Positions 27,411 through 64,000 of a stretch of 64,000 nt of DNA are shown piece by piece. This DNA comes from Gautieria morchelliformis (taxonomy: Eukaryota; Basidiomycota; Agaricomycetes; Gomphales; Gomphaceae). Within the stretch, counting starts at the first letter, position 1. Every line of letters starts with the position of its first letter. A program made the translations under genes and the position numbers. The notes beneath the pieces were generated by a model. That model was not told the DNA's origin. It did no database searches and worked only from the letters and a program-made list of their open reading frames with translations. Where the stretch lies: the NCBI GenBank assembly GCA_015179125.1, contig WHVA01000367.1:1-64000 (forward strand), given 5' to 3'.

Positions 27411-27623
27411 TGTGGAGGGTCAGCTCACCATCATCATTCTTCAGCCAGCTTTGAGTCTTCATCAGCTTTACTCCCCCTCTCAGCAGCCTCTTTGCATAAT
27501 TGAGCAGTGCGCCGCCACTCCTCAGTTCCTCCAACCTCGTGTCTCACTCCCGCTCCTCCCTCCGCCTTGAGCCAGATGCCAAGGCTCAGAATCTCTATTA
27601 ATCTTTCGGAAGCCCCTCTTTCA

Positions 27624-27957: not shown

Positions 27958-27965
27958 CTACAGCC

Positions 27966-35600: not shown

Positions 35601-36120
35601 CCCCCAATGAACTATCGTCCTAAGTATTTCAGATCGGAAGTTGGAAGTCAGAAAGTGTCAAAGTAAGCCAAAGGTCAGAAACTAAGTTGGAAGGTGGAAG
35701 GTGGAAAGGCAAAGCGGAAGAGGTCGGAAAGCAGAGGGACTGAGGTCTTCCAATACTCACTGTTCTAAGAACAGAAGATAAAGCACAGGGAATCACATAT
35801 TGGAGGTGATTATCTGATTGCAGAATCAAGAGCATGGATGAGGGGGTTTTATATGAAAAGCTGAAGCAACAGGTAATGTTGTACTCCTATTCATCTCCCT
35901 TGTTACATCCCAAGTTCTATCTCGACTACCTCACCCTGCCCAACGTCAAGGCCAAAATCGACTGTCACAAGAGTTTATGCTGAGTGCCCTGCCCAGCCAT
36001 TTGAGCTGTTTGTGAAGACAGGCAATGTGAGTGGCACTTTCTAGTCATACCCTGGTGAGTATGCTATTCCCACCATTCCTCAGGACCTCTTCCTACCCCT
36101 CTCCTTGTATATGGATATGA
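35601..36120. other. Spacer between opposite-facing satellite arrays
   Basis: A purine-rich part at 35630-35750 (GGAAGGTGGAAGG, GGTCAGAAA words) is followed by sequence near 35890-36060 that looks like degraded retroelement sequence, but no domain could be named. The satellite changes orientation across this spacer. Confidence 0.4.
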
Positions 36121-37496
36121 GAAGAGACAGTGGAGTGCAAGGGGAAAACAGGTGTGGTGGGAGTGGAGAATGTAGGGGGTGAGTGGATAATGTGGAGTGC
36201 GAGTGGATAATGTGGCTTGTGAGAGTGGAGAACATGTTGTGCAAGTGGAGGATGTGAAGGAGAGTGGATAGCACGTGCAGAATAAGCAGAGAAAGTGGAG
36301 TGCAAGGGGAAAACAAGTGTGGTGGGAGTGGAGAATGTAGGGGGTGAGTGGATAATGTGGAGTGCGAGTGGATAATGTGGCTTGTGAGAGTGGAGAACAT
36401 GTTGTGCAAGTGGAGGATGTGAAGGAGAGTGGATAGCACGTGCAAAATAAGCAGAGAAAGTGGAGCGCAAGGGGAAAACAAGTGTGGTGTGAGTGGAGAA
36501 TGTGGAGTGGGAGTGGATAATGTGCAGTGAGAGTGGATAACGTGGCTTGTGGGTGGTGAACATGGTGTGCGAGTGGAGAATGTGGTGTGCAAGGGGAGAA
36601 CAAGTAGAGTGCAGGTGGATAATGTGGCTTGTGAGTGGAGAACACGATGTGGGAGTGGATAATGTGGAGTGGGAGTGGATAATGTGGAGTGGGAGTGGAT
36701 AATGTGGAGTGGGAGTGGATAATATGGAGTGGGAGTGGATAATGTGGAGTGGGAGTGGATAATGTGGAGTGGGAGTGGATAATGTGGAGTGGGAGTGGAT
36801 AATGTGGCTTGTGAGTGGAGAACATGTTGCGGGAGTGGAGAATGTGGAGGGGGGCGGAGAACATATGCAGAATAAGCAGGGAAGGTGGAGTGCAACAGGA
36901 GAACAAGTGGGGTGTGAGTGGAGAATATGGAGTGTAAGTGGATAATGTGGAGTGCGAGTGGGTAATGTGGCTTGTGAGTGGAGAACATGTTGCGTGAGTG
37001 GAGAATGTGGAGGGGAGCAGAGAACATAGGCAGAATAAGCAGAGAAGGTGGAGTGCAAGGGGAGACCAAGTAGGGTGTGAATGGAAAATGTGGAGTGTGA
37101 GTGGAGAGTGTGGAGTGCAAGTGGAGAATGTGGAGAATGAGAGGAGAATATGGAGTGTGAGGGGACGATGTGGAGTGTGAGTGGAGAATGTGGAGTGTGA
37201 ATGGAGAACATGGTGTGTGAGTGGAGAATGAGTGGAGAACATGGAGTGTGGGTGGAGTACATGACATGTTAGTGGAGAACATGGATTGTGAGTGGATAAC
37301 AAGTAGAGAATAAGGGGAGAAGGTGGAGTACCAGGGGAGAACAAGTGGAGTGTGAGTGGAGGGTGTGGAGGGTGAGTGGAGAGTGTGGCTTGTAAGTGGA
37401 GAACATGGATTGTGAGTGGAGGACATGGAGTGAGAGTGGAGAATGAGGAGTGTGAGTGGAGAATGTAGAGTGTGAGTGGAGAACATGGTGTGCAGG
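36121..37496. repeat. 20-base satellite, array 2, with a 165-base higher-order unit
   Basis: The strand shown is GTGGAGTGTGAGTGGAGAAT-like. Two consecutive 165-base units (36131-36295 and 36296-36460) are nearly identical, and a third begins at 36461. At 36649-36800 about seven copies of GTGGAGTGGGAGTGGATAAT follow one another almost without change. The opposite strand is open in all three frames, which follows from a 20-base unit lacking stops and does not show coding. Confidence 0.92.
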
Positions 37497-39514: not shown

Positions 39515-41172
39515 AGCCAGGGAGTACAAGGGGAGAACATGTAGAGTGTGAGTGGAGAATGTGGAGTGTGAGAGGAGAATTTGGAGTGTGAGTGGAGAAC
39601 GTGGAGTGTGAGTGGAGAACAAGTAGAGAATAAGGGGGGAAGGTAGAGTACAAGGGGAGAACAAGTGGCGTGTGAGCAGAGAATGTGAAGTGTGGGTGGA
39701 GAACATGGATTGTGAGTGGAGGATGTGGAGTGTGAGTGGAGAATGTGGAGTGTGAAGGGAGAATGTGGAGTGTGAGTGGAAAACATGGTATGTGAGTGGA
39801 GAACAAGTGGGGAACATGGAGTGTGAGTGGAGTACATGACATGTCACTGGAGAACGTTGAGTGTGAGTGGATAGCAAGGAGAGAATAAGGGGAAAAGGTG
39901 CAGTACAAGGGAAGAACAAGTGGAGTGTGAGTGGACAATGTGGAGGGTAAGAGGAGAATGTGGAGTATGAGTGGAGAATGTGGACTGTGAGTGGAGAATC
40001 TCGACTGTGAGTGGGGAATGTGGAGTGGGAGTGGAGAATATGGAGTGGGAGTGGAGAACGTGAAGTGTGAGTCGATAACAAGTAGAGAACAAGGGGGAAA
40101 GGTAGAGTACAAGTGGAGAACAAGTGGAGTGCGAGTAGAGAATCTGGAGTGTGAGTGGACAATGGGGAGTATGAGAGGAGAATGTGAAGTTGGAGTGGAG
40201 AACATGGATTGTGAGTGGACAATATGGATTGTGAGTGGAGAAATGTGGACTGTGAGTGAGGAATGTGGACTGTGAGTGGAGAACATGACATGTAAGTGGA
40301 GAACATAGAGTGTGAGTTGGTAACATGTAGAGAATAAGGGGAAAGGTGGAGTACAGGGGGAGACGAAGTGGAGTGTGAGTGGAGAATGTGGAGTGTGAGT
40401 GGAGAATGTGGAGTGTGAGTGGAGAATGTGGAGTGTGAGGGGAGAATGTGGAGTGTGAGTGGAAAACATGGTATGTGAGTGGAGAACAAGTGGAGAACAT
40501 GGATTGTAAGTAGAGTAGATGACATGTGACTGCTGAATGTGGAGTGTGAGTCAATAACAAGTAGATAATAAGGGGAGAAGGTAGGGTACAAGGGGAGACC
40601 AAGTGGAGTGTGAGTGGAGAATGTGGAGTGTGAGTGGACAATGTGGAGTATGAGAGGAGAATGTGGAGTGTGAGTGGAGAACTTGGAGTGTGAGTGGAGA
40701 ACATGATGTGTGAGTGGAGAACATGGAGTGTGAGTGGATAACAAGTAGAGAATATTGGGAGAAGGTGGAGTACAAGGGGAGAACATGTGCAGTGTGAGTG
40801 GAGAATCTGCAGTGTGAGCGGAGAATGTGGATAATGAGAGGAGAATGTGAAGTGGGAGTGGATAACATGGATTGTGAGTAGAGAATGTAGAGTGTGAGTG
40901 GAGAAATGTGGACTTTGAGTGGGGGATGTGAACTGTGAGTGGAGAATGTGGAGTGCAAATGGAGAATGTGGCTTGTGAGTGGAGGACATGGACTGAGAGG
41001 GAGACTGTGAAGCGGGAGTGGAGAACATGGATTGTGATTGGACAATGTGGAGTGTGAGTGGCCAACTTGGAGTGGGAGTCGATAACAAGTAGAGAATAAG
41101 GGGAGCAGGTGGAGTACATGGGGAGACCAAGTGGAGTGTGAGTGGACAATGTGGAGAATGAGAGGAGAATGT
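39515..41172. repeat. 20-base satellite, array 3
   Basis: GTGGAGTGTGAGTGGAGAAT-type units run continuously, with recurring longer phrases (AACAAGTAGAGAATAAGGGG followed by a tract with AAGGTGGAGTACAAGGGGAG) about every 200-250 bases, a looser higher-order pattern than array 2. The part from 40784 on belongs to the right arm of the inverted duplication. Confidence 0.92.
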
Positions 41173-43220
41173 GAAGTTCAGGATTGATTCTTTTAGAGTC
41201 TAGGAGTTGGTGTTAATGAATTCAAGACACCCAAATGCAGTGAACCAAGCAGTCCTTGTGCAAAGTGATTATGTAGTTGACGAAGAGTACGAGAGTACTA
41301 CTAGTACACAGTGGTAGTATGCGATGGATGAACCGATGTCTACATTCGAAGCGTAGGCTTGACAACACCTGACCAAATCGTCTGAAGGGAGCCTGGAAGG
41401 TTATCTGAGATAGATGATCCCCTCATCAGCAAAGGCACTCCTTTCAGGAGCCTTTGCCAACAGGCTCACACTGGAGGCATATAAAAAACTGTTCAAAAAA
41501 CTGTAAAGATATTCCAATTTTTTTTAGTGTTTTTAATGTAAAAAAATTTAACAAAATTTTGTGTTTTTGTTAGAATTTGTTGAGCAAGAAAATTGTAAAA
41601 AAGTTTAAAGTTTTTTGCAGGGTTTTTTATGTCTTTGTATAAGTTTCTTTGTGAAAACACAAAGAACCCCATAAAAAACCCTGACAAAAACATTGAATTT
41701 TTTTTACAATTTTCTTGCTCAACAAATTCTAATAAAAACACAAAATTTTATTATAGTTTTTTTTTCTATAAAAAAAAACACTAAAAGTATTTGGAAAATC
41801 TTTACAGTTTTTTCAACAATTTTTCAGACAAGAAAACTTTTATATGGCTGTAGTGTCAGAGTAATTCCAAGAGTCTGGAGTAAGCAGAATCGATGGTGTC
41901 AACTTACAAGTGATGCACCTGTTTTTCATGGCGGAGGTATAATGGGAGGGTAGAGCTCAAGAGTTGCTCACATGTTAGTAAGGTAAAGCACAAGGAAAAC
42001 GTATGATAATTGAACTAGGGAACATACATGCTGGGCCAGCCCTTTTTATAGAGAATACATCTATGCTACTGGCAAATGAGAAAGAGGCCGACTGGTTTGG
42101 AATATTACAAAGGATGCACAGTCACATTACAAACAAAGGGTAGACATACTGTATAGAGTGAAAACTTCAGTGAAGCTAATTCTGACATGAAAGAGGGGCT
42201 TCCGAAAGATTAATAGAGATTCTGAGCCTTGGCATCTGGCTCAAGGCGGAGGGAGGAGCGGGAGTGAGACACGAGGTTGGAGGAACTGAGGAGTGGCGGC
42301 GCACTGCTCAATTATGCAAAGAGGCTGCTGAGAGGGGGAGTAAAGCTGATGAAGACTCAAAGCTGGCTGAAGAATGATGATGGTGAGCTGACCCTCCACA
42401 GAAAGCCTGGCGAAGGGATTGTTACTGCTATATGACCTTTCTGTGAAACCTTGCACATACATCATCAAGTGTCACAGGCTATTTGGCTTCGACTGTAGAC
42501 AGGGCAAGCTCCATTCGAATAGCCCCCTTACTTAATAACCTTTATTGGCTTTACATTGTTCGCTGAACTACAAATATTATCGCACAAGCCTTTCAGGCAT
42601 TTGCCATGTTCACTAATATGCGATATTAGTCCCCAAATCCAATCTTGACACATGGTCGAGTTCGGTTGTAAGGACCCATGATGTTTCCTCATCGGTACCT
42701 TCATAACCAGCCCAGCAGACAAGGTACAAGAGATTATAAGGTCTATGGCATCAGTTGATCTTGGAGTCCAAGATCTCAGAAATCTCTTACTCTGTCTTGC
42801 CGTCAATCTCGACTGGAGGCAGCAGAGACTGAACCCGATTTGGGATGGTGTTTGGGGTTGCAGGTTCAAGCATGGAGACATGGAAGACCGGGTGGACTGC
42901 CGGAAGGCTGTCTGGAAGCCAAAGGATGTAAGCTCTGGATCCAGCCTGGACAATGATCTCAAAGGGGCCAATGTACTTTTCAGCTAACTTCTTTGAGGGC
43001 CGGGTTGTCCTGAAGAACTGCACTTTGACAAACACCAGGGATCCAATCGTGAACTCGGGGGTGGGAGCACGATGTGTGTTGCCTGAGACCTGATACCGAG
43101 ATTGAGCTATTTTAATTTGCTCTTTCAAGGCAGCGTGAAGCTGGTCAAGGTCAACTGCAAAGACTCGGGCCCGAGAGGAAGCAAGGTCCCGTTTGGGGTG
43201 AACCGTGAGGTTCAGGTTGT
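40784..43220 (-). repeat. Right arm of the large inverted duplication
   Basis: Reverse complement of 26591-29026, with positions summing to 69811 (69810 beyond the T-run indel). It lacks the LINE found in the left arm. At 43221 identity drops sharply although the gypsy sequence continues. Confidence 0.9.
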
Positions 43221-46907: not shown

Positions 46908-47695
46908 GTGGTGGACAACAAGTGGAGAACATGGAGTGTGAGTGGAGAACAAGTAGAGAATAAGGGGAGAAGGTGGAGTACAAGGGGAGAACAAGTGGAG
47001 TGTGAGTGGAGAATGTGAAGTGTGGGTGGAGAACATGGAATGTGAGTGGAGAATGTGGAGTGTGAGTGGAGAATGTGGAGTATAAGAGGACAATGTGGAG
47101 TGTGAGTGGACAAGGTGGAGTGGAAGCAGAGAATGTGGAGTGTGAGTGGAGCATGTGGAGTGTGAGTGGAGAATGTGGAGTGTGAGTGGAGAACATGGTG
47201 TATGAGTGGAGAACGAGTGGAGAACATGGAGTGTGAGTGGAGAACTTGGAGTGTGGGTCGATAACAAGTAGAGAATAAGGGGAGAAGGTGGAGTACAAGG
47301 TGAGAACATGTGGAGTGTGAGTGGAGAATGTGGAGTGTGAGTGGACAATGTGGAGTATGAGAGGAGAATGTGGAGTGTGAGTGGACAATGTGGAGTGTAA
47401 GCGGAGAATGTGGAGTGTGAGTGGATAATGTGGAGTGTGAGTTGAGAATGTGGAGTGTGAGTGGAGAATGTGGAGTGTGAGTGGAGAATATGGCTTGTGA
47501 GTGGAGTACATGACATGTGAGTGGAGAACGTGGAGTGTGAGTGGAGAATGTGGAGTGTGAGTGAACAATGTGGAGTATGAGAGGAGAATGTGAAGTGGGA
47601 GTGGAGAGCATGGATTGTGAGTGGAGAATGTGGAGTGTGAGTGGAGAAATGTGGAGTGTGAGTGGGGAATGTGGAGTGTGAGTGGAGAACGGGTG
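46908..47695. repeat. 20-base satellite, array 4
   Basis: GTGGAGTGTGAGTGGAGAAT-type units with good regularity. It ends abruptly at about 47695 in copia reverse-transcriptase sequence, the proposed left breakpoint of the inversion. Confidence 0.9.
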
Positions 47696-50031
47696 GCAGC
47701 GATGGCACGAGGAAGAATGACACTCGAAGAAACGGAAACAGCATTTGTCATATTAGCAGAAGACGAACCGGCGAGTTACAGAGAGATGAAGTCGAAGGAC
47801 GCAGAGAAATGGAGAAAGGCATGTCAGGACGAATATGACCTACTGATGGGATACAAAACATGGGAACTAACCGAGAGACCAGAAGGGACAAACGTCATAG
47901 GGAGCAGATGGACATTCAGAGTGAAGAGGGATAATCTAGGAGAAGTGGATAAGTTCAAGGCGAGATTCATTGCACAGGGATACTCACAAGTCCCAGGAGT
48001 CGACTTCCAAGAAACATATTCCCCCACCATTCGACTCACCTCAATTCGACTCATACTCGCTCTTGCAACCAAATATGACCTAGAGCTACGACACATCGAC
48101 GTGAAAGGAGCTTACCTGAACGGAAAGCTCGACGACACCGTATACACGCGACAACCAGAAGGATTCGTCAAACAAGGAGAGGAAAATTTGGTCTGCAAAT
48201 TGAACAAAGGAATATACGGGCTCAAACAGTCGGGGAGAGTGTGGCATGGGACGCTGAGAGAGGAAATGGAAAAGCTGGGGTTCAAGACAGGAGAGGTGGA
48301 CAGAACGATATTTTTCAGATTTGGGGAAGGAGATAACATCGAGATTGCAGGATGGTATGTGGACGACAGACTCCTTGCATCAAACTCGTTGACTGCAATG
48401 GAGAGGATGATCAGAGACATCAGGGGGAGTTTTGACATACAATATTTGGGAGATCCAACACGACTACTTGGCATCCAGATCATCAGAAATCGAGAACGTG
48501 GCACCATACACATCTCCCAGCCAGCATTCATTAACACTATTGCCAAACGATTCGAAATAACACCTGGATGTACAGTGAATTCCCCAATGGATCCAAATAT
48601 CGAACTACAAGTCTCCACTTCCACATCAGAAATCGTCGACTATGCCTACGCATCGATAACCGGAAGCTTGAACTACTGTGCCGTGGCAACTTGACCTGAC
48701 ATAGCCTATGCGGTTAACAGATGCACACAGTTCTCATCTAAACCTAATGTCACTCACTGGGAAGCAGCTAAAAGAATCTTGTGATACTTGTTGAACACCA
48801 AGGAATATGGGATAATGTACCTGAGGGAAGGTGATGGGGCCATGGGATTTGCACATAACCTAGCAGGATACACAGACGCGGACTTCGCAGGGGATAAAGA
48901 TGATAGGAGATCAACTACCGGATGGGTATTCACATATAATGGGGCACCTATATGTTGGGCATCAAAGAAGCAGATCAGCGTCAGCAGATCAACGATGGAA
49001 TCAGAGGTAGTGGCAGGGTCGTTCACCTCAGCTGAAGGGATATGGCTCATCAGGCTAGGGAGGGACTTCAAACACGAATTCACCCCCATCCCCATATTCA
49101 CCGATAATCAATCCGCCATCGCATTCTCAAACAACAATATCAACAACAGCAGGACGAAACACATCGATATTCATTACCACTACACTAAAGAACAAATCAC
49201 GGCTGGGAATATCAACCTTCAATACATCAAATCACTCGAAAATCCAGCCGACGTCCTCACCAAACCGCTGCCTGCTCGCAAGCACCTCCACATCCTCGGA
49301 ATCCTTGGAATGCGTCAGGCTTGAGGGGGAGTGTTAGAAACACTGAAGAAACACTATATCATATCACCATCCTCATTACTACAGTCGTCGATATCAAACA
49401 GAATCGACTACCCACACCCGCACATGCATATACTCACTCCAGCACATCCCCGAGATCGCCGAACTCCAACACACACATTCAAACCTACTCAATCCACGCA
49501 CCAAATTACCCCGATGATGCAGGAAGCCATACCATATGCTCTCACAGCCCAGAACTCCCCTATACGCCCTACACAAGCACACCGATCCCGGTCCCAAGAC
49601 CTACACATCGTATGATCATGTGATCTAATCAAGGGACGCGACTTGACGGGTCGGCCCTGTACAAATCTCGAACCTCTTCCCCTATTCCTCCCCACATGCC
49701 ATATGCCCCTTTTGTCGATACAATTCAACCCCTAACTGACATGTACATGTCGACACTAACCTTGACATCTCCCTTGCATCTATCCTTTGTTCCAGTTGCA
49801 TCACATCCAAGAAAACCAAGAGTTTTCCTTCAGTAGTTAAATACCACGACTTGTACGCTACATTCTAGTAGTGAAATCCGATCTTACTTTGCTCTATATC
49901 ACAACAGCTAAGTCTTGATAGCATATACCATCAGACGCATATACTTGGTACTATCTCTGATTCACACTCGATTTATCTCACGTTCAGAGATTAAATCATA
50001 TCACTTTCAATCTTACTTTCAAATACTAACA
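47696..50031 (+). mobile_element. Copia remnant: reverse transcriptase, RNase H and 3' LTR (copia-3)
   Basis: Reverse transcriptase (WTFRVKRD, VKGAYLNGKL, WYVDDRLLASN) and RNase H (YTDADFAGDKDDRRSTTGW, RSTMESEVVAGSF) are followed by TTGAGGGGGAG and a 700-base LTR (49332-50031, TGTTAGAAACACTG to ACTAACA). Gag, protease, integrase and the 5' LTR are missing here; a 98-percent-like copy of the first 296 LTR bases lies at 61967-62262 on the minus strand. It is broken, with at least one break besides the truncation. Confidence 0.88.
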
Positions 50032-52151
50032 AGACCTAAGTCCTCTTCTGGTTGAAGATAGAAATCTCCAAGAAAAGGCTCAAGACGATAATCACAGCAA
50101 GGTCAAGTTTGCACAAGATGGACGACGCATGATAATTAAACTGGAGAATATACATGCGAATGTAGACTACTTATACCGAATGCTCATATGGTGCAAGTGA
50201 ATAGGAAAGAGGCCGTCTGGAGTCAGGATTGGATAGGGGTGCGCAGTCAGGATACATAATAGATGAAATAGACATACAATAGAATGGAAGAGGGGTGCGA
50301 ACATGAAACGATGGAGAGGAAAGAGGGCGAAGGACCCGGGTAAAGGATGTTGATCGTGTTTGATGGCCTGCCTGCTGGCGAATGATGCGAGTAGCGAATG
50401 GTCATATGGCGAATGTGGCAAGTAGCGAATGGAGCGAGGAGTGAATGGAGCGAAGACGAGTGACCATGGAAGAGTGGTGAAAGGGACAACAGGGATAGCT
50501 GGGTACAAGAAATAAACGAGCCATGATAGCCTGCACCTCCTTGCAATTCATGATAGGACCAGTGATGGACCATCAATCCTGTTATGATAGACACAATTAC
50601 CCCATTTCAAATCATCTATGTACAAAAGAAACTAATAAAATAAAAACAAGAAACAGATCAAAAGAGACAGAAATGACACTTACGACAGACGTTGGCACAG
50701 ACGACGAGCACACGAAATTACGAGTTGCTATCTTATCTACAGATCGGATAAGGTACAGGGATATGGGCGTCGACCACGTGCGGTCGACCAGAGATAGCGC
50801 GCCTATCGAGTGATGGCATCGGCCATGACGTCAACAGGCGCCAGGCCACAGGCACTGAGGAGGTGTGGGCACCAAACGCCGCAGAGAGGAATAGACTGCA
50901 CAGGAGCACAGGGTATTGTGGAGTGATTTGAGAATATCATCCACAATACACATACTCAATTAGCTGCCCCACAGAAAAGGCACAGAGACAGCGGCCCCAT
51001 CACCAAGCCTAGCATTTATGCTAGGCAGGGCAGATTTAATTCTTTTTCTATTTGAACTCCATGACACGACTGGCTGACTATTATCCTAACATCATGTGGA
51101 CAGGGGCTTTGTATGCTAAGTACAGATCTCTATCCCAAAGCCTAAATAATCCTGATACTATCTCCATCACCCCATGACTTTATGACTATAAATTAGTCAC
51201 CCCTTAGTTACAAAGTAGCTTTTCGACCCAACTGCTCAATACCTTGAACACCAGTAGTTACCACTAGTATAGTATAAATAGCTACTACAAATGTATGAAC
51301 GAGATCATCCAGAATCGATTATTTTACCCCCTGAAATCACTAGTCTTGTTTGATAGCTACAGAACCCAAATCTTGATAGTTTACTCCAGATCTTCGCTGA
51401 GGGTTCATTATCACTGTTTACTCTACACTACTTCAAAAGCGAACACTTTTGACCATTTCTTTATCGACACAGTCACGTGACTTCCAGTCATCAGTGCCCG
51501 ACGCGCCTCAAGGGGCTTAGTCAGCACACAGGCGAAGGACGAACATAGCGGTTTTACCCGCTAAGCAATAGACTTTATTTGCTAAAGGCATCAACTGATA
51601 TCTTAATCCAAAAAATCCAGGTAAAGGATGTCAATCGTGTTTGATGGCATGGCTACTGGCAAATGATGCAAGTAGCGAATGGTCATTTGGCGAATGTGGT
51701 GAATAGTGAATCGAGCAAGGAGTGAATGGAGCAAAGCCGAGCGAACATGGAAGAGTGGTGAAAGGGAAAACAGGGATAGCTTGATACAAGAAATGAATGG
51801 GTCATGACAACTGTGTAGTGAAAACTTCAGCGAAGCTAATTCGTCCTGCCCTGCAGTGGTATGAGTCCCATTGAGTCCAACCTGCACGGAGGCTGCAACT
51901 GACACTATCTGAATGCATCCTGAGCATGTGGGTCTGTCATGGAGTGGGAGTTTAACAGATGATGGGTTCTATGATGGATGAGGGCCCCAACACCTGGCGT
52001 CCTGGCAGGAATGATACGAATAGTGAATGCGAAAGCAGTATGGCGACGAATATTTGGAAAGATATTCGCTGGTTCGGGAAGCCGTTCGCTGGTTGAGGAG
52101 GTCATTCGCTGTGTGTTGAGGGATGATTCACACAATAAACGAATCATGACA
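50032..52151 (-). mobile_element. LTR-A copy, rearranged and carrying repeat F
   Basis: 50032-50580 follows LTR-A from the CCTAAGTCCTCTTCTGG block onward. 51600-51817 repeats the stretch 50335-50535 (GGTAAAGGATGT, GTGTTTGATGGC, ATGGAAGAGTGGTGAAAGGG) and ends in TCATGACA. A third LTR-A-type end (GAATCATGACA) stops at 52151. Non-LTR sequence, including repeat F, occupies about 50590-51598. It is a fossil with several internal duplications. Confidence 0.65.
51210..51515 (-). repeat. Dispersed repeat F, copy 2
   Basis: Reverse complement of the 13437-13820 repeat in block order, with moderate divergence. It sits inside the interrupted LTR-A. Confidence 0.5.
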
Positions 52152-52441
52152 AATGTGCATTAACTTGAGCGCAGGAGATGTAGGAAAAGGAACTTGAGAC
52201 TGATAGTGAGGACACTGTTAACTCACTCAACCGGACTCAACAATGTGAGTGAATGGTCTGAAACCAATGATTTGTTGTAGCTAAAGTCCTGGCTACTTAT
52301 ACAGTGGTGAACAGGGGTAAAACCCTATGGAACATTGGATTAGGAGTGCATACATCACCAATGATGTCAATGATGATGCTATGTGCCCCTAGGTGGATAA
52401 TCCATTGCCCCTAGGAAATGTCCCTCTAGAATCCAATAACA
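52152..52441. mobile_element. LTR-E, larger part of an interrupted copy
   Basis: It matches 21391-21730 closely (GGAACTTGAGACTGATAGTG, CAATGTGAGTGAATGG) but has fewer of the internal GCCCCTAGG repeats. It ends CCAATAACA at 52441 and is followed by TGCTC, the reverse complement of the GAGCA at 62661-62665 next to the other end of the same copy. Confidence 0.85.
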
Positions 52442-54000
52442 TGCTCTCCACTCGCGCTCCTCTGCCGGGACTTGGCAATCTGAGGTTTCTCTGCAGTCTC
52501 TTGCTAGGTGTCCTCTTAGGCCACATTGGAAGCATTCCCTGGAGTCCAGGTAAGGACCTCCTGGTCTGAGTGGGAATGGGTTCTCTATGGTCGCTTTGGA
52601 GCCTGCGTATTGTCGGCACCATTCAGTGACCATTCTTTCATATGCTGCTTGGCCTGCCTGTGAGCTCAGGTATGGTCTCCAGATGTCGTATAGTGATGCG
52701 TTGTACATCAGCTGAGGGGCGTCGCTCTGTCCTTGGGCACATGTCGGTGTCACGAATGGGTTCGTTGGGGAGTGGAACAGGTTGAGCGTTGCATTCTGTC
52801 TGGTTGGCATCCCAGGTAGGTTAGTTTGTCATGTTGGTGTCTGTCGTCGTCATCTGTGTCCCTGGGGTATGCGCTACCTGTCTGGTGGCGCTCGGTGTCG
52901 CCGGGGCTTGTGTTGGTGTGATCGTCGTACGTTGAGTATGCCACATGCTCGTCGTGTGAGGGCCTGGTCTTAGGTGCACTTGCTCATCCTTGCTCCTGAT
53001 TGCATCGGTTATCTGCTGGATGATGTCTGTGTCCCTTTTGGCCTCCGCCAGTGCTGACATTCTGATTGCTGGCATGCTGTCGTGGAACTCTTGCCAGTTC
53101 GCGTAGCTCTCGTTGGCTATGAGTTTGCATATCACATCTGGGATATTCCTGCGAACTTCGTCGATGAGCAACCCTGATGTCTCCCCGATTGCCATCACTA
53201 GCATGAGCGTCTGTTCTGCGAATGCGTGGTGCGTTGGGATTGTCCTTCCTCTGTATTCCACTGTCTCTCCCACCTCTTCTGCCTTGATCCTTAGCCCCGC
53301 TAGCTCATATCTCTTCTGCTCCCGCTCGTTCCCACTCTTCTTCGGGATTGGCCATTTCATCTCGAACACTCGTTTCACTTCTCCCCATTTCGTCCTGTTG
53401 ATCTTTGTCCTCATCTCCTCCCACCAGTCTCCCGACTCCTCTGCTGGCATCATGCAGATTCCGAGCACCTCTATCCTCATTCCTTCATCGTAGCCTGCCA
53501 TCATTGCTTCCAGTTTGAAGGTCTGCAGCCATGCGTGGGGGACTTCACCATCTCTGTAGTCTCTGTAGAAACGGCTAATGCTCTTCTTTTTTGTCATTGC
53601 GCTTGTGGTCTCTTCGTTCTGGCTGGCTTGATCCGCTGATTCCTCTTCGCTTGTCGTGGTCAGGTTTAGTGACGATAGTGTGGGCGAGGATTCCCCTGAC
53701 ATTGTCAGGGTCTCTTCGTATGTCCTGGCTGCCTGGTCCTGTATCCTATCCAGTCTTCTGTCATAGTGTTCCCTGTTCCTCAAGTCGTTTCTACGTTTGA
53801 AGTTCCGCTATCTGGTTCAACACTGGTCCCACTGGCTCCCAAGTGCTGGTTGCTCGAATCCCGGCAGTGTCACCATGTGGAGCAGGGGTCTCTCTAGTTG
53901 GGAGTCGCGCCTGCGCTGCCAATGGTAGTGGGACAAGTCTGAGTGATGATTCAGTCTCCACTCTAATACAGGTGTGTACTATGGTCCTCCCGCCTACCTC
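52442..54000 (-). mobile_element. Gypsy gag region (zinc-knuckle type)
   Basis: The minus strand encodes a 320-residue-scale gag domain: a coiled-coil-like start NREHYDRRLDRIQDQAAR, then SISRFYRDYRDGEVPHAWL and WWEEMRTKINRTKWGEVKRVF. Downstream is a zinc knuckle CFQCGLRGHLARDC near 52520. Its matching protease and pol part appears to lie at 62661-64000, separated by insertion and inversion. Broken. The right boundary with the Plavaka element near 54.0 kb is approximate. Confidence 0.8.
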
Positions 54001-54009
54001 GCCCCTCCT

Positions 54010-57000
54010 GCGCCCACCTGGACCCACATCCCTGATCTCCCTGCTCCAACGTCCAAACCAGCATACCCACAGGAATGGGTCGCACTGCCACTCACTACCT
54101 CCATCATTATACTTGACATTCACATGGAAGATTCCCAGGGTCCGGGCATACCAGAACAGGTGTGCTTCTTGCGTGCCACCAGGGTCATCACGGGCATGGA
54201 CCATGATGTCACAGTGTGCTGTATGCGGGTTCACAGAGTCTTGACTCTGTCGGATGTTGTAAGTAGTGAAGCTGAGCCTCCATGTCCTGTGATGATAAAG
54301 GTGATTGTTGCGGATGAGAATCGAGTCACGATCACCCTCGGTAAACTCGGTTTCATCTCCATCATACTCTATCCAGCACATGCGGCTGAGCAAATGGTCT
54401 TTCAGACGATTGTAAAAATTCTCAAGTGGAATTTAGACAGGGATATCCAGACAGTGAATGCTTGACTCACTTTAAGAGCAGGGTCCCGAGGATGTTCACG
54501 TACGAAGCGGCCGATGTCAAGCGGTTGTTTTTGAGAGGTAGATATATGATAACGTTCTTTGGGGTCTGTGTATGGCAGCTTGTCTGCCTCAAGAGAGGAC
54601 ACATGGTGCGTACGTGTGCATTGAGGTAGCATCCCTTCCGCTTCTTGAAAGCAGTCTGTGATGTTCCGCATGTGAGACTCACACCGGTCTATTTTGGTCA
54701 TTCCAGCGGATGACACGGCCTTCGAGACACGAGGATACCGCCGTTTGGCCTTACGGTGTTCCATTTCACCCTGGCAAAACATGAGCATTAACATTTCAAG
54801 ACTGGGAGTGTGCCTACAGTTTGCATTGAATAAGAATCGGTTGTTCCAAATAGACGGATCGTAGCCACCTAGTCTCCAAGGAAATGGAGTTTGGGTGTAC
54901 TGAGGTTGAACCGCTTGGTCTTTCGAGGCTGCGGGCCAGGAGCTGGCATGGAAGGATGATTGCTAGCTGTGGCACTTTTCTTCACGTTCCTTTGAGCACG
55001 GGCCGCGAATTCACGCGGCAATTCATGGGTTTCGAAAGCTTTGCATGTGATGTTGTCAAACCTGCGAATGCTATCCCCGAGAGTTGTTGTCAGATCATCG
55101 AGGCGTTGCAATGTCGATTCAGTGTGCATGCGCAGCTTCGCAAGAGCATTCCAGGAGGCCAAGGTAAAAAGGAGGTGCTGGACAATGCGTTCATGGGGAT
55201 CTGGGAACAGGCATTCAAATACGGAAAGGGCGCACTGTGGAAACCGATCATTGGGTCAGGCATGGTTTTGTAGCCTCAGGAGCACAGTGGAATGGTGACT
55301 TTACCTGGAGGATATCTCCAAAGTCCCGCGCAGCAAGCTTTTTCATTTCAGACACGTCGTTAGAGAAGCAGCGGATGGTATCGTGTCCAAAGGTTGGCAC
55401 CGCGCGGAAACTATGGGATAGCTCAGGTACAATGCATGCTATATCCATTGTGGAATGAACCACTTATTCAGTTCATGGACCTTATCAGGTGATAGTGCAT
55501 TCAGCAGCCGGATTAGGTGCGTGAATACTGCTTTCCAAACGCCAAGTTCAACTTCATGCATGATATCGACAGGGAAAATCTGGTATTTGTTGAAGGATGG
55601 TGTGGTGATCCTGCTAGATAAGGCATTCTGCCAACCCAGAACGTGTCAACTGGCAGTTAGAGATGGCACGTGACGGCAAGTGCATGGGGGCTCACTTCTG
55701 TGGGTACTCGTGACTGCACTTTGAGCAGATCCTCGACAGCCTTGCTACTGACCCCATATCCCATTTTGTCATAGATGAGTTGGCGAGACAAAACGATGTC
55801 ACCCCTGAGCAGGTGCGTGTCTGCTCGTGCTTATGTCTCTCGTCTCGCCCGATCCTTTTTTTCCCAAGGTCGCAAATTTCCTTTTTGTGCACCAAGCAGC
55901 GCAGGCAGGGACACGTGCCTTTGTCCCTCAAGGACAGCATCAACATTTTTTCCGGATAATCCACTGAGTATGTCATGAGGCGCAGGTAAATCCTCCTTTG
56001 AATCGCATCGGCACACATGACAACAATTCCATGCTTGTAGGCCTCGATGAAGTCATCGTCAAGCAGCAGTGCCCATACTGCCTGGATGAATTCACAGCGG
56101 CAATGAGGACCAGACCCAGCCTTACCACCACAAATCTGCCATATGAAATCCTGTATAGCATTGGGGAGCTAGTGCGTCACGGGTTTCGATGTAAGTGTCC
56201 CTTTATCACCCGCTCAACAATGTCACCCACTGACGGTATGTATGCCCAATGTTCACAGGAATTTGAATTGGGATTACATCGAAACCACTTGGCCATATTC
56301 CCGGGGAACGCATATATGGGCCACAGCTTGGCCGTTCCAAACTGTGCAAGGTGCGTGGAGTCTGACCACACCATAATTGCCGCCACTGCTTTCTCCAACT
56401 TGCAGCCTGGGACCGCAAATTCTGGATTAAAATTGGCTTCTCAATGGGCTTCGATAAATGCTGGAGATGTATACAGGTCTGAGTAAATACATTCTGCGGG
56501 TGCATCTGGTCCGGGCTTCCACCTCATCTCAAAAGGTGTGTAGTGCAGGTTCATCTTGGTCTCAAATATAGAACGCACGATTTGGACTATCGATTGATGG
56601 TGAAGCCCTAGGGCAACAAAGGTATGTTGGGTGCATTTATGCTCCTGCACCAAAATCAAGCATAATATGTTCAATTTATTGTGTGGTGTTTCCAATTGTT
56701 TCTCACATTGTTCTTGTACCATGCATCCATTTCTCTGCTTATTTTCGAAATTTTCCAGTCACTCCCTATCTCTCCATTCCACTTTGTTATTTCTATTTTC
56801 ACAGGCGGCTGCACCCAGCGGAGTTTGAAATGACTTCGACGCGCGAGCTCCTGGGCGCTAAAGGGCCGGGTGCACGTATATGCCTTCTGAGACAGGATTG
56901 TACTCCTCTCTCGGTGACAATAAATTCACTGAGAGAGGCGAGTAGTATCTTTCATATTTACATAGCATGTTGACTGAAAATCATGTAGTGCATTTGATTC

Positions 57001-58101
57001 TAGGTACTGTATTAATATATCAGTGACAATAAATTCACTGAGAGAGTGTATTTGATTCTAGCTTTCTAAGAACTCTACCGAACCTTCCCTGCCATAGCCC
57101 CTAGTTGCTAACAAGGTATGCCCGTTCGGACTAGTCCAATCATTCTTCCCTTCGGGCACTTGAAACTGAACAGCGACATTGCGCTTCCAGGTAGAGCTGA
57201 CATTTGCCAGCTCATTGTCCAAATTGTCCAGGAGCTGGTCTCGTTTCCGTGCTGTAAAGCCAAGTAAATCCGCCAACACAAAGTGTGGCTCAGAGACGAC
57301 CGCAACCAATCAGTTGAAGTCTGGGTCAGAACGTTCTCCAGAAGGTGAGTTGTAGTACCAGTTCGATAAGATGAATGTTGATGCATTGGGAAATGGCCCA
57401 TATGTGACCTCAGGTGCATGCCTGGCGTCCTCAAGTCCTTCCCATCCTGTGTCCAGACCAGCACCAGTTGTCAGTGTGGAATTGGGCAATGTCAGACCAG
57501 CAAGATCCTTCAACGTACACGCAGGCAAACATGGACCAACGGCGGAACTTCATGCGCAGGTCCGCCAGACCCACACGGAGCCTCCAGCTCATTGCCTTGT
57601 TGCAAGGGGGGACAGCTGGAGGAGGCCTAGGCAGAATGTCCGAATACCTGGCTGGCATTCGGCGTACCCGCCTGGGCCTCCCCTCAGCCGTGGCTGCAGC
57701 CTCTGGCACCGTGCTCGAGCTGCTGGCCTCGTGAGTCACTGGTGTGACTGCTTCCAGGGCCTGTGCATCATTCTCCCGGCTACCATCCCTCCGACCGTGC
57801 GTCTCGTGAATGTCCCCAGGTGCATCCATATTTGCGCTGTCATCACCGTCCTCCTAATGGGCTTCTTAGGTTCTGATCGGTTCTCAGGCATAGGAAAGAT
57901 CATACGCACAGCGATGTCCAACAGGTCCGTCTGATGTAAGTCCCCACGCATAGCTTCTCTTGAGCCCTCACCAGCCCCCACTGCTACAGATATCACTCCC
58001 ACTTCTTTACTACTGCCCACTTGTGCTGGTGCTAATATATTCCCCTCATTCGTCGCAGGATCCCTGTCGGAGACAGTTCGTGGCCGCTTGCGGCGCGACA
58101 T
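54010..58101 (-). mobile_element. Plavaka-like (CACTA superfamily) DNA transposon
   Basis: The transposase gene listed separately fills this interval. Terminal inverted repeats were not identified: on the 3' side the element appears cut and joined to gypsy sequence near 54.0 kb; on the 5' side it ends before the LTR-A at 58545. It is therefore probably immobile although much of its gene survives. Confidence 0.75.
54010..58101 (-). CDS. tnp2/Plavaka-type transposase, spliced gene, 3' end truncated
   Basis: Successive minus-strand frames give the family's motifs in order, which implies many short introns. In order: RRVRRMPARYSDILPRPPP (about 57.7 kb); YGPFPNASTFILSNWYY (57.4); FEMRWKPGPDAPAECIYSDL (56.5); SDSTHLAQFGTAKLWPIYAF plus GNMAKW (56.3); YLRLMTYSVDYPEKMLML and CPCLRCLVHK (55.9); FGHDTIRCFSNDVSEMKKLA (55.3); LAKLRMHTESTLQRLD and HELPREFAAR (55.1); LDIGRFVREHPRDPALK (54.5); and SVNPHTAHCDIMVHARDDPG, FWYARTLGIFHVNV and FLWVCWFGR (54.1). 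Such enzymes excise and insert CACTA-type DNA transposons. After WFGR the family's C-terminal block is missing. The proposed start is ATG 58101 (MSRRKRPRTVSD); no N-terminal zinc finger was seen. Exon limits were not all fixed, and some frames may be damaged. Confidence 0.75.
56905..57060. repeat. Hairpin pair with AATAAA loop, short tandem duplication
   Basis: CCTCTCTCGGTGA and TCACTGAGAGAGG (56905-56938) form a 13-base stem with one mismatch around CAATAAAT. A second copy CAGTGACAATAAATTCACTG occurs at 57021-57040. The words TTTGATTCTAG at about 56994 and 57050 bracket the second copy, suggesting a duplication of about 57 bases. It lies in an apparent non-coding part of the Plavaka gene. 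Confidence 0.6.
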
Positions 58102-58544
58102 CTCTCTCCATATCGCATTGTGTTCATGTCACAATTTGTGGCGCCCTTTGTCCCAATGCGGCCCTTCAAGACGATTCCCCAGTAACGCAGCTCCAGCACT
58201 CACAGATGCCAGGCAGTGGGTCTCATGATAAGCCAAGCCACGGGGAGTATCCCATGTGCTACCACAGGCCTGGAAGTGGTAGCTAATGAGTGTAAGTCAT
58301 GCTCCTCACTCAGTCATGATCCTCGCTGAGGTAATTACACTATGTCTTGCATCCCTCCACTAGCACAATATCCTGGTTCACAACCGAAGTCACGTGAAAG
58401 TCACCTACAAAAAAGGCGGGTGAGCTCTATTTGCGGCCATTGATCCCTTTCCCCCCATCATCATCCTAACGCTACCATGCCCCTGTACTCAAGTTCATCC
58501 TCACTTGCCTCCCAGTCCTCTTCCCGCGGACTGAGTGTGGGTTC
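58102..58544. other. Region between Plavaka and LTR-A
   Basis: No gene was recognised. It may contain the promoter and 5' terminus of the Plavaka element; no CACTA-type terminal repeat could be confirmed. Confidence 0.35.
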
Positions 58545-59688
58545 TGTCATGACGCGTTTATTTCCTATACTCAGATGCTCTGTCCTCCCATTCTCCACTC
58601 CACCTCCATGTTCGCTCCGATGGCCCTTGCAGTGTTCGGCGACCGATCTTCGCTGTTCGTGCCATTCACCATAGCCATGCCATCAAAGCACGGTTGACGT
58701 CTTTGGACCGACTTGATAGTTCACCACTGGTCCCATCACCCCCTCTGCTCAATCCTCTTTCGATGTTGTTCCTATGATCGGATTGCCACGACTCGTGCAT
58801 TTTCTGCACCTAGTTATCCCCGTTTCCCCTGTCACCATACCTCCTCCGCTTTCGCTCAGCTTCACCCCTCACTTCAACCACTCCTCCCCTATGTCCTCTC
58901 CGTTGGTCCTTCGGCGCATTCACTGAATGGCGATTCGCTGCTCGCATCATTCACCAGCAGGCACGCCATCAAACACGATTGACGCCCCCTACCCGGTATG
59001 ATGGTTCGTCACTGCTCCCATCAGCTTCTCGATCCAACCCCTTTGGGTGTTCATATGGCCAGGATGTGTTCGCGGGACATCCCCTCCACAGGTCGTGTAG
59101 GATCAACCCAGTAGACAAAGAGTCCGTGCAGGGTGGCATGTATGCAGGTCCCAAGACATGGTTTCATACATAAGTGCCTTCACCACCTTTACTCTCTGTC
59201 GCTTCATGTTCACACTCCTCCCTCACTCTATTGTATGTTTATTTCATCTATTTTGTATCATGGCTGTGCACCCCTATCCAACCCTGACTCACAACGGCCT
59301 CTTTCCTATTCGCTGATACCTTACGAGCATTTGATATAAGTAGTTTACATTCGCATGTATATTCCTCAGTACAATTATCATACGTCGTCCATCTTGTGCA
59401 AACTTGACCTCGCTGTGATCATTGTCTTGAGCCTTCTCCTGTAGATTTCTATCTTCGACCAGAAGAGGACTTTGGCATCACTGGTGAGTTCTCATACTTC
59501 ATCTTCATTACCTTAGCCTTCAAACTATTTTCTATGCTGTTGGCGAAGGGATTGTCGCTACTTAGACAACCCTTCCGTAACACCTTGCACGTTATATCGT
59601 CAAGTGCCATGGGCTATTTCGCTACGACTGTAGATAGGGCGAGCTCTGTTCAGGCAGCCCTCTTATCCTGTGAACATTTGTTGGTTCA
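58545..59688 (+). mobile_element. LTR-A, plus strand, cut by gypsy element D
   Basis: It begins TGTCATGACGCGTTTATTTCC, contains the promoter-like TTGATATAAGTAG at about 59331, and follows LTR-A up to GAACATTTGTTGGTTCA, where LTR-D begins. The last 130 or so bases of LTR-A are absent. Fossil. Confidence 0.8.
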
Positions 59689-61966
59689 TGTAAGAACCCG
59701 GCCTTTGGCCAGTTACTTACCGGTAAAACCTTCTTCCGAGCCCGAGCCTTGTGATATTCGTGCCCGAGTACATATGATCCTTATCCGCGCCCGAGCCCGA
59801 GCTTGAGCTCATATCCGACATTGATCCCATGCCCGTATCCCCTTAGTTACTGATTCCGCTCCATCACGCATCATTCGTACATTACCTCGCCCTGACCTTG
59901 GCCTCCTGACTTTGCCCTGACCTCCACTAATATGTTCGCCCCTGACTCGAACCCTCGCTCATATATAACCCCCTTGTATGCATTCCTACTCCTCAGTCTG
60001 AAAATCAACTGTCGTATCCCTTCGATCCTTAGCTAGTTTCTAAGCCTCGCCTCTTTAACCAAACCTCGCCTCTTATTCGTTTGCCTCCGAAGTTGGGACT
60101 CGTGCGTAGGGCCGGCGCAGCACATAAGCTGAAGCCAAGTCCCTCTCCGACTTCCCCATCCAAACCTCGCCCCGTAACCTCGGACCTTGCCTAGGGTTTC
60201 GTCCCCAACCTCGGTCAACCTTACGACGGATCGTATCGTAACAGTATTTTCAGACTGCTTACACCCTACGTATGCCTTTTCTTCACTATGTCCATGATAA
60301 CTCGTTCCCGCACCCTTCGGGGTATATCAGAGCAACGACACTTCTCGGAAGCCCCCGACGATTCACCACCATCCCTGGGAATACCCCTCACAGACCCCAC
60401 CGAGCCTAGTAACAAAGGCAAAGGTAGGGCTAACCCCGGTGATCCTTCAGGTGATCCAGGAGATGGCTCTGGAGGCTCCGACAATGATCGGGACCTCCCC
60501 AACCTCCCACCCGAGGACCTCGGTGACCTCGAGGACAACGAGCTTATGCGTCGAGTGTTCATCAAGCTCGCGAAACCTCGCGAGTCCGAAGCACGAGCCA
60601 AGGTCAAGGAACCGGATAGTTATGACGGTACTGACCAGGCCAAGCTTCGCACCTTCTTCCTTCAATGCGTGCTCAACTTTCGAGATCGCCCCACAGCTTT
60701 CAAGACTGGGGCCTCGAAGGTGCAGTATGCTATTTCTTACCTGTCCAGCTCAGCTCTACAGTACTTCGAGCCGGCGATCCTCGGCGAAGTCCAGCCTGAG
60801 CCAGACTGGCTCGAGGACTTGGACAGCTTCAAGGCCGAACTCGAGCTCAACTTCGGCCCATACGACAACGCCGCCCAAGCCGAGATCGACCTCGAGAAGA
60901 TTGTTATGAAAGAGCACCACAAGGCCGCGCGATTCTTTATCGACTTCACCTGAGCTTCGACTCGGACTCAGTGGAACGATGCGGCCCTCCGACACTTCGC
61001 CTACAAGGGCTTGGCCAAAAGAATCAAGGACGACTTACTTCACTTCCCTCGATTCCACACCCTCGCTGAGCTTAGGAACTTCGCGCTGGAATGCGACAGC
61101 CGTTACTGGGAGCGTAAAGAATATGACGCCATGATCAATGGTCGTAGCTCCCAGCCTGCACACACTGCTAATCAGTCCAGCAGCAATGCCACTAACAACA
61201 ACCAGTCTTCCAGCGGTTCCAATAACAATAAGAACCGCAACAAGGCTAACAACAACGGCAAAGGTTCCAACAACAACTCTTCGAGCAACAAGAGTCAGCC
61301 CGACATATCGAGCAAGCTCGGGAAGGATGGCAAACTACTTCCCGAGGAACGCCGACGTCGGGTCGACCAGGGCCTTTGTCTGCTTTGCAGCACCAAAGGC
61401 CACATCGTCAAGGACTGCCCGAAGAACAAGTCTACCAGCGGTAGCGGTTCTAAAGGTCGGGCAGCGAAGACCCCTAACGAGGGGACTTCGGCCTCCATTA
61501 TGGAGGTGAAAAAATAGGTAGCAACCTCAGAACCACATGATCCGAGGATTGCGGTAACCTCACCCGTGTGCTCAGACTCAGCGCCGCTTCTCATTCATTG
61601 TCCAAAGATTCCCTTAATGTAGACCTAACCTCGCCTTCGCTCCCCAACGTCGCTTTTGTTGCATTAGTTGACTGCGGGTCCTCAGATTGTTTTATTGAAT
61701 CCAGATTTGTCCAGAAGTACTCTATGCCTGCTTATCCTGTCTCTCCTATACCCTTGAAACTATTTGACGGTAGTACTAACACTACCATTACCCAAGCTCT
61801 AGACCTCTGCATTTGCTTTCTGACCGGCGAACAACAATGGGTTACCTTCTACGTAACCTCGCTCGACTCGAGTTGCTCGATGGTACTTGGCCACAACTGG
61901 CTCACCCACTACAATCCGTCGATTGACTGGGTATTGGGCAGTATTACTTTCAAGACGTCCCTTGAT
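59689..61966 (+). mobile_element. Gypsy element D: 5' LTR, gag, protease; truncated
   Basis: A probable 5' LTR (59689-60243, TGTAAGAACCCGG to CGTAACA, with ATATATAACCCCC near 59962) is followed 45 bases later by gag (LPPEDLGDLEDNELMRRVFI, SSALQYFEPAIL), an asparagine/serine-rich linker, a zinc knuckle CLLCSTKGHIVKDC near 61.4 kb, and an aspartic protease (FVALVDCGSSDCFIESRF) near 61.7 kb. The element ends at about 61966 in copia LTR sequence, so reverse transcriptase and integrase are gone. Broken, with about two breaks besides the truncation. It is inserted in LTR-A. Confidence 0.85.
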
Positions 61967-62262
61967 TAGATCATGTGATCATACGATGTGTAGGTCTTGG
62001 GACCGGGATCGGCGTGCTTGTGTAGGGCGTATAGGGGAGTTCTGGGCTGTGAGAGCATATGGTATGGCTTCCTGCATCATCGGGGTAATTTGGTGCGTGG
62101 ATTGAGTAGGTTCGAATGTGTGTGTTGGAGTTCGGCGATTTCGGGGATGTGTTGGAGTGAGTATATGCATGTGCGGGTGTGGGTAGTCGATTCTGTTTGA
62201 TATCGACGACTGTAGTAATGAGGATGGTGATATGATATAGTGTTTCTTCAGTGTTTCTAACA
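61967..62262 (-). mobile_element. Copia LTR piece (first 296 bases of the copia-3 LTR)
   Basis: Reading the minus strand from 62262, TGTTAGAAACACTGAAG matches 49332 onward with about six differences in 296 bases. It is inserted in LTR-A after GATGCCTAA. The other end joins gypsy D at about 61966 within an eight-base stretch, CGTCCCTT, common to both parents. Confidence 0.9.
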
Positions 62263-62603
62263 TTAGGCATCACTGGTGAGTTCTCATACTTCATCTTCAT
62301 TACCTTAGCCTTCGAACTATGTTCTGTGCTGTCGGTGAAGGGCTCTGAAGGAGCACCTTCACCGGCGAAGGGATTGTCGCTACTTAGACAACCCTTCCGT
62401 GACACCTTGTACGTTACATCGTCAAGTGCCATGGGCTATTTCACTACGACTGTAGATCAGGGCGAATTCCTTTCAAGTAACCCTCTTACTTCTTAACCCT
62501 TACCTCTTCGGTACTGTTCGCTGGGCAATTCGCTAGATCGCACATGCTACTCAGGCATTCGCCACTAACATGCGATATTAACGCCCAAAATCCAATCTTG
62601 ACA
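62263..62603 (+). mobile_element. LTR-A terminal part beside the copia LTR
   Basis: From GGCATCACTGGTGAG to CCAATCTTGACA the sequence follows the end of LTR-A on the plus strand. The rest of this LTR-A copy, in the same relative orientation, is at 50032-52151. It lies inside LTR-E. Confidence 0.85.
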
Positions 62604-62660
62604 CGCATATTCCTCCGAGTCCTTCCCATTTTGGCAAGGCAATGAAATAACGAAATAACA
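62604..62660. mobile_element. LTR-E, short end of the interrupted copy
   Basis: The minus strand reads TGTTATTTCGTTATTTCATT and then matches the start of the 21342 copy (TGGGAAGGACT, GGAGGA). It is followed on the plus strand by GAGCA (62661-62665). Confidence 0.85.
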
Positions 62661-64000
62661 GAGCAGACTATACAATGCTAAGAAGCCTCCAGAGACAGCA
62701 GCAGAGGTCACCGATGATAGCACACATCAACGAGATAGATCAGGGAAACGGGGAGGAGCCATCTGCATAGAGGGAGAAGGACAGCCGGCTCCAAAACCAC
62801 AACCCTCGAGGGCGGAGCACATGGTCAAGAGAGTGGAAGAGGGGGAACAGTTAGTGAATACTCATTTCTCACCACTAGTAGGGGTAACAAAGACAGAGAC
62901 CATTGAACCATACCCAAGCCCGTTAGCAAATGTGTTCGCAGCTGTCGCGACTGGAACAGAAGCGACCAGCATGCAAGGACACATGCAGGTGTACAGAAGA
63001 TGGGTCAAGCTCCACGGGAGCCATGGACAGGTCATAAGAGCCCAAGCCGTCGTAGATGGAGGAGCGATGAGGAACACAATGTGCGCATTGAGATGGGACC
63101 AATGGAAGAGACGCATGACGCCAACGAGGACTTCAGAAGTGACGCTGAGAGTGGCAGACAACCACAAGATCAGATCAAAGGGCTGCTGGGTCGGAGAGGT
63201 CACAGTAGCCAACATCACGAAAACTCAGAGCTTCGAGATATTCGAATCACACGGAGCCTTCGAAGTAATCCTAGGGAAGCCATGGCTACAAGCAGTCAAA
63301 GCGATGCACGACTACGAGGCAGACAAACTCAACATTGAAGAAGGGGCAAGACGATCACCATAGTAAACACACTGGAGGAGAGCAAAGAGACGGGAGGAGA
63401 ACAAGGAGTACCGACGAGAGAGAAGGACCTACGGAAGAAGGACAGAGAACAGCTAGAAGCGAGCCTCCAACGAGAGGCCACGAGAATAAACACCCTCAGC
63501 ACAGAAGAGATCAAGAGAGAGACGAGGCCGATGATGAGACTGACGCTAGAGACAGAAGGGGAGAAAGCGAGAGGCGAAGGGAACCTGAGCAGGGGGGAGA
63601 CGGCAGAGGGGACAGAGAACGAGAAGAGGGCGAAATGGGAGTAACTAAACCACATCAGGAGGGCCCTCAGGATCAGCAAGCGGATGGACGAATGGGCAAG
63701 GAACCTGGACACGCTAAGTACCGACCAGAACGCAACCATCTGGATAACAAGAGATTCCACAGGGGAAGCACACGAAGACAGTGAAAGGACGAAGGACCCA
63801 TTCCCACCACACAGAGTACAAGAAATAATAGACAAAATCACCATCGGACTGGACCTAGAGGAAGCACAATGAGAAGTAATCCTAAACCTGGTAAAGGAGT
63901 TCGCTGACATCTTTGCACTCTCACTCTCAGAGGTCTTCCTGGTTGATTTTACCACACACAAGCTGCACGGCGACCTGACAGTCACACTGCCCAATAAAAT
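62661..64000 (+). mobile_element. Gypsy protease-pol region, runs off the window
   Basis: 62821-63363 encodes a retropepsin-like domain with AVVDGGAMRNTM in the active-site position and FEVILGKPWLQAVKAMHDYE after it. An acidic/basic, charge-rich region follows, and near 63890-64000 the lead-in to reverse transcriptase (KEFADIF) appears. It is likely the continuation of the gag region at 52442-54000. Broken, with several breaks. Confidence 0.75.

Follow-up and report, generated by a model that had tools for sequence, protein, structure and literature searches.

We analysed a window of 64,000 bases of Gautieria morchelliformis DNA, the first part of contig C412 (117,681 bp), and found in it a nest of transposable elements whose two halves lie 10 kb apart in opposite orientation. 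In this nest a copia element lies in a long terminal repeat (LTR) copy named LTR-A, LTR-A in another named LTR-E, LTR-E in a gypsy retrotransposon, and gypsy in a Plavaka DNA transposon. The comparison of insertion sites strongly supports the view that the halves were formerly contiguous and that one is now inverted, at four sites rather than the three of the initial annotation. The rearrangement was probably an inversion with deletions at both ends, closed by end joining. All comparisons were made within the repeat-rich assembly of one strain (122 Mb, 1,113 contigs), using the rest of contig C412 and element copies fetched from the same genome; coordinates above 64,000 are those of the contig.

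Division of LTR-E, LTR-A and copia

By comparison of the window with itself and reading of the element ends, LTR-E, LTR-A and copia were each found divided between 47692-52446 (plus strand) and 62665-61956 (minus strand). The parts and their target-site duplications (TSDs) are as follows.

62604-62660, minus strand: first part of LTR-E (self-comparison and end reading)
52152-52441, plus strand: second part of LTR-E, beginning with the imperfect TSD of LTR-A
52442-52446, plus strand: LTR-E TSD, TGCTC (end reading)
62661-62665, minus strand: LTR-E TSD, GAGCA, the complement of TGCTC (end reading)
62263-62603, minus strand: first part of LTR-A, inside LTR-E (self-comparison)
50035-52151, plus strand: second part of LTR-A, with a further insert of ~1 kb at about 50579-51614
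52153-52157 and 62604-62608: LTR-A TSD, ATGTG and its partner CGCAT
61956-62262, minus strand: first 307 bp of the copia 5' LTR, inside LTR-A
47692-50034, plus strand: 3' part of copia, with the reverse transcriptase (RT) region (RVT_2, E 1e-66) and the 3' LTR at 49332-50034
50035-50039 (plus strand) and 62263-62267: copia TSD, CCTAA and its partner TTAGG, perfect on both sides

The TSD pair of LTR-E is perfect and sits exactly at the TG..CA ends. That of LTR-A is imperfect (ATGCG vs ATGTG, one mismatch and one extra A); three other LTR-A copies of the contig have perfect 5-bp TSDs as read by eye (ACACC, ATTTT and ATAGC). The copia LTR ends in ..AACAAGA rather than CA, and likewise in the two other copies read (L030 and L031). 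Apart from this end and the imperfect duplications, each level has the make-up of an LTR retrotransposon nest, with TG..CA ends, a TSD of 4-5 bp and an uninterrupted target. The two copia LTR pieces are 98.0% identical (6 differences in 307 bp, all transitions). Because the closest other LTR copy over this 307-bp stretch reached 95% among the 40 of 535 candidates scored, the two pieces are most likely parts of one element.

These splits had been described in the initial annotation. Its coordinates and duplications for LTR-E agreed with our reading of the ends, as did its placing of gypsy gag (minus strand) on one side of LTR-E and pol (plus strand) on the other. The LTR-A and copia splits stood as well, the latter with its perfect CCTAA duplication; the copia 3' end was moved from 50031 to 50034 and the start of the second LTR-A part from 50032 to 50035, and the LTR-A duplication turned out to be imperfect.

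A repeated element of ~1.07 kb inside LTR-A (50579-51614; contig 82652-83721 and 90956-92028) was also found within the C813 copy of the host gypsy.

The host gypsy and Plavaka

The gypsy element carrying LTR-E is divided like the inner elements, with gag at 54048-52442 on the minus strand and pol at 62661-68873 on the plus strand. It sits in a Plavaka DNA transposon, whose parts lie at 54049-58544 and from 68874 to about 71180, an end placed by where matches to paralogs stop.

52442-54048, minus strand: gag half of the host gypsy, with a zinc knuckle and an LTR at 53878-54048 (171 bp)
52442-52828, minus strand: CCHC zinc knuckle (Pfam PF00098, E 7e-05)
62661-68873, plus strand: pol half of the host gypsy, passing the window end at 64000, with an LTR at 68683-68873 (191 bp)
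64001-65243: solo LTR-A inside the pol half
65244-66476, plus strand: RNase H of the host gypsy (PF17917, E 4e-19)
66682-67521, plus strand: weak integrase match in the host gypsy (rve, E 1.5e-05, below the curated cut-off)
54049-58544, minus strand: Plavaka half (PF18759), with a 488-bp insert at 56625-57112
54049 and 68874-68877: 4-bp gypsy TSD, ACGT at the start of the Plavaka half and its partner ATGT

The gypsy TSD (ACAT/ACGT) has one mismatch of 4. A Plavaka transposase domain is present at 55695-56168 (PF18759, E 3e-9, above the cut-off). The gag-side frame 52824-53807 (minus strand) gave no convincing Pfam match, and the pol-side frame 62662-63360 (plus strand) gave none at E 0.01. Plavaka was also considered as the immediate flank of LTR-E and was rejected, the flank being gypsy and that gypsy lying in Plavaka.

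Next to the end of the Plavaka match lies a tandem array (contig 71183-71911), rich in GC and made of units of 31 bp and more; similar arrays occur in many contigs.

Uninterrupted insertion sites elsewhere in the genome

The copia site in LTR-A was uninterrupted, with a 5-bp overlap, in all five copies of LTR-A compared on the contig. For the LTR-A site in LTR-E, 40 genomic candidates were scored and 7 loci fetched from them; these and a window copy at 21342-21648 were contiguous across the site (8/8), with a 4-bp overlap in seven, while the two sides abut in L005. The LTR-E site in gypsy, counted in copies with a match of at least 82% to each flank, was contiguous in two of three (overlaps of 5 bp in C264 and 4 bp in C671); the third, in C813, keeps the collinear order, with about 43 bp absent at the site. 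The gypsy site in Plavaka was contiguous in 5/5 copies compared (C268, C333, C205, C881 and C913); in two of them the sides overlapped by 4 bp, in another two by 2 bp, and in the fifth not at all. In C2 and C207, which stand outside this five-copy comparison, both Plavaka sides were matched further apart in the same orientation. Because uninterrupted targets exist for all four insertions, the halves were once one nest, of which one half is now reversed. The presence of the uninterrupted form of each site elsewhere in the genome likewise makes the pattern more than chance.

The same sites speak to the idea that no rearrangement took place at all and that LTR-E, LTR-A and copia each entered two places on their own. 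In favour of that idea, all three belong to multicopy families, but their pieces are complementary and meet at TSDs at four levels, and the uninterrupted targets join both flanks. We rejected it as having next to no probability; the objection foreseen in the initial annotation, that LTR-E might have entered both places separately, was not borne out.

Junctions of the reversed piece

The junctions were placed at 47691/47692 and 61956/61957, in correction of the breakpoints 47696 and 61966 given in the initial annotation. The right-hand one falls in a second gypsy element, here called gyX.

46921-47690, plus strand: array of a 20-bp minisatellite adjoining the left junction, with a unit resembling GTGGAGTGTGAGTGGAGAAT
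47691/47692: left junction, minisatellite then copia RT region, 0-1 bp of homology
58545-59688, plus strand: 5' LTR of gyX (LTR-A family), in Plavaka after GGTTC (58540-58544)
59689-61956, plus strand: gag and protease of gyX, cut off at 61956
61956/61957: right junction, gyX then copia 5' LTR position 307, 1 bp of homology

Junction homology was judged against two copia copies and three gyX copies. In the left-junction search (40 of 132 candidates scored), the 39 other listed places match the query only from 47692 (query position 193) or later. Neither junction was spanned by any other place among the 40 scored in each search, the search at the copia LTR junction being the one with 535 candidates.

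These junctions bear on ectopic recombination between inverted repeats, the Galileo-like route to an inversion, which calls for homologous inverted copies at both junctions and exchanged TSDs. Inverted repeats do occur in the flanks (98% identity between the copia LTR pieces, 85% between LTR-A family copies), but at neither junction is any sequence common to both sides, with homology of 0-1 bp. The two sides that meet at each junction are unrelated, and for this reason we rejected recombination between inverted LTRs of copia or inverted copies of LTR-A; provided that the assembly is correct, we hold a Galileo-like origin to be very improbable.

Tandem Repeats Finder reported the minisatellite at 46995-47689, with a period of 20 and 35 copies. 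The same 20-bp minisatellite forms five arrays within 19 kb (28633-29026, 35108-35583, 36109-37492, 39521-41177 and 46921-47690), of which the first two point one way and the last three the other.

The partner TSD of gyX is missing. Its protease was recognised as RVP_2 (E 3.5e-05, above the cut-off), and its gag matches (DUF4939 and zinc knuckle) were weak and below the cut-off. At the gyX insertion site in Plavaka, C155 runs through and C636 stays similar to C155 across the site. A plus-strand frame at the Plavaka end (58477-58544, ATG at 58477, frame read by eye) seems to continue in C155 past the gyX site. Compared with three other copies, gyX is mostly 88-98% identical per 100 bp over 59689-61956, with one bin of 68% in two copies, and reaches 99% in the ~270 bp next to the break, which makes it look like a recombinant between subfamilies.

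Sequence missing at the breaks

According to the initial annotation, one inversion of 47696-61966 explained all three splits. The former contiguity and the inversion held up, but turning the piece back restores no intact copia, gyX or Plavaka end. Re-inversion would join position 307 of the copia 5' LTR to the RT region without the stretch from position 308 to RT. In the copies on C257 and C421, both of which hold further inserts, this stretch measures 4.35 and 4.85 kb, respectively. Re-inversion would also set the protease-cut gyX, without pol and 3' LTR, beside the 20-bp minisatellite. The missing Plavaka end is about 1.06 kb long (C155:108861 to about 109921, the latter taken from where other matches stop). 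A single inversion leaves the elements incomplete, and a full account needs either loss of sequence at each breakpoint or some more complex event.

These stretches of copia, gyX and Plavaka are missing from the contig and look deleted. The continuation of Plavaka is absent from contig C412, where a comparison of 1.5 kb gave no match; among the 40 of 84 candidates scored, C155 itself aside, none was a close copy of full length. The best partial copy, C1081:161957-162610, is 93% identical to C155 over positions 407-1063 of the missing stretch, and its left-hand flank of 1.7 kb has no match in C412 or in the gyX loci L027 and L028. For the second half of the copia 5' LTR, no close copy was found among the 40 of 104 candidates scored, the best being 92% identical.

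Proposed history

The nest would have started with Plavaka and taken up gypsy, LTR-E, LTR-A and copia in turn, each inserted into the preceding one, and gyX would have entered another part of the same Plavaka. Two breaks would have followed, one inside copia and one inside or beyond gyX, and end joining that used no homology would have put the 14.3-kb middle (47692-61956) back the other way round. At one break copia would have lost the sequence from LTR position 308 to the RT region; at the other, gyX pol, the Plavaka end and whatever separated that end from the minisatellite would have gone. The rearrangement came after copia and gyX had inserted, and such a flip is an ordinary kind of breakage-and-repair event. 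As expected of an inversion by end joining, one piece has the opposite orientation and the junctions share little or no homology (0-1 bp). Former contiguity of the sequences at the breakpoints was shown for the copia side, at four nested sites; for the minisatellite/gyX side no such link was detected. We infer that both breaks came from one event, that the minisatellite side already lay to the left before it, that the lost sequence was deleted and not moved, and that end joining was the mechanism.

Several points weigh against this history. Nothing detected links the left flank (up to 47691, the minisatellite and beyond) to Plavaka or gyX, which makes it a presumed original neighbour, and a single inversion restores intact elements on neither side. 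Of the four TSD pairs, those of LTR-A and gypsy are imperfect. The C1081 fragment of the Plavaka end could be a remnant moved elsewhere, and since each search scored a portion of its candidates, the missing parts may still be present in the assembly.

The untied left flank, together with the sequence missing at both junctions, would also fit a translocation or a multi-break repair in which 47692-61956 was rejoined inverted and the left flank came from another place. Nest halves 10 kb apart on one contig are, however, the simplest outcome of a local inversion and speak against translocation, and we consider this origin unlikely.

An assembly error would have placed a piece with repetitive ends the wrong way round, with loss of repeat sequence in between. 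In its favour, both junctions lie within multicopy elements, and the two further Plavaka copies described below that look split and inverted could also come from an assembly confused by repeats. In maize, sequence has been reported missing through misassembly of near-identical LTRs (PMC2773423), which also counts for an error. Against it, there is no N anywhere in the 64,000-base window. Misassembly usually uses sequence overlap, but the joined sequences here share 0-1 bp. Moreover, the missing Plavaka end is low-copy, with no close full-length copy found in the scored candidates, and a mere flip would not explain its loss. We judge an assembly error improbable, and an inversion with deletions at both ends stays the probable history.

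Similar splits elsewhere in the genome

Two further Plavaka copies are divided. In C268, parts matching 54049-56324 (plus strand) and 58030-56320 (minus strand) overlap by GCCAC, the 5-bp TSD of an inserted element. These halves lie at 143368-145655 and 152466-153759, the second reversed. In C155, parts matching 54082-55192 (minus strand) and 55192-55650 (plus strand) meet at one base; the halves, at 81958-83075 and 99536-99993, have opposite orientation and start 17.6 kb apart. None of the four fetched paralogs of one outer flank in C155 (of 40 scored) continues into the other flank, and because of this C155 is not established as a clean inversion.

It is conceivable, though we doubt it, that transposon nests in this genome were repeatedly broken and partly inverted, as the Plavaka copies in C412, C268 and C155 would suggest. 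The same-orientation Plavaka parts in C2, and the match in C333 that stops at 55207, speak against recurrence. Recurrent nest inversion, or recurrent assembly trouble, may serve as a testable idea, the C268 and C155 cases having come from no survey.

The window also holds an inverted pair, 26591-29026 / 43220-40784, of 2,437 bp and 99.9% identity, with adjoining matching sequence at the 26591/43220 side of only 79-82%. The pair looks like recent gene conversion, an inverted duplication or an assembly effect.

Comparison with known rearrangements

Nested transposons are on record for the basidiomycete Laccaria, in a paper whose main text has no word beginning 'inversion' (PMC3411680). In a limited literature search we found no description of a half-inverted multi-level nest, and we do not claim that none exists.

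Inversions in Drosophila subobscura are reportedly chromosomal and far larger. Breakage at non-homologous sequence, discussed for that species (PMC6861252, PMC7584159), is one of the two inversion mechanisms named in the abstract of PMC6861252, and the breaks described here likewise fall at non-homologous sequences. The staggered breaks of the same papers would leave duplications, whereas here only losses were seen.

The Drosophila inversion 2z3 was reportedly made by copies of Galileo (PMC2775673). Like 2z3, the present case has TSDs that are unpaired at one site but paired, as complements, between the breakpoints. In 2z3, however, two whole chimaeric Galileo copies recombined at homology and exchanged their TSDs, whereas here one nest was cut without homology. 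Like the maize p1/p2 region, where breakage was reconstructed from nested retrotransposons, TSDs and end joining (PMC2686159, PMC3014980), the nest could be matched up piece by piece through the TSDs of its LTR elements; the deletions in maize were healed by end joining. The maize events reported there are insertions, deletions and duplications, unlike the inverted half-nest found here.

Where DNA consists of repeats alone, a small inversion leaves gene order untouched and is therefore difficult to notice. Here elements nested five deep, with their TSDs, provide an internal record, within a single genome, of an inversion, of its order relative to the insertions and of the DNA lost. Such reading of split nests from their TSDs could be automated over a genome. 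If nests have indeed been broken and partly inverted repeatedly, split TSDs in them could record otherwise invisible small inversions genome-wide.

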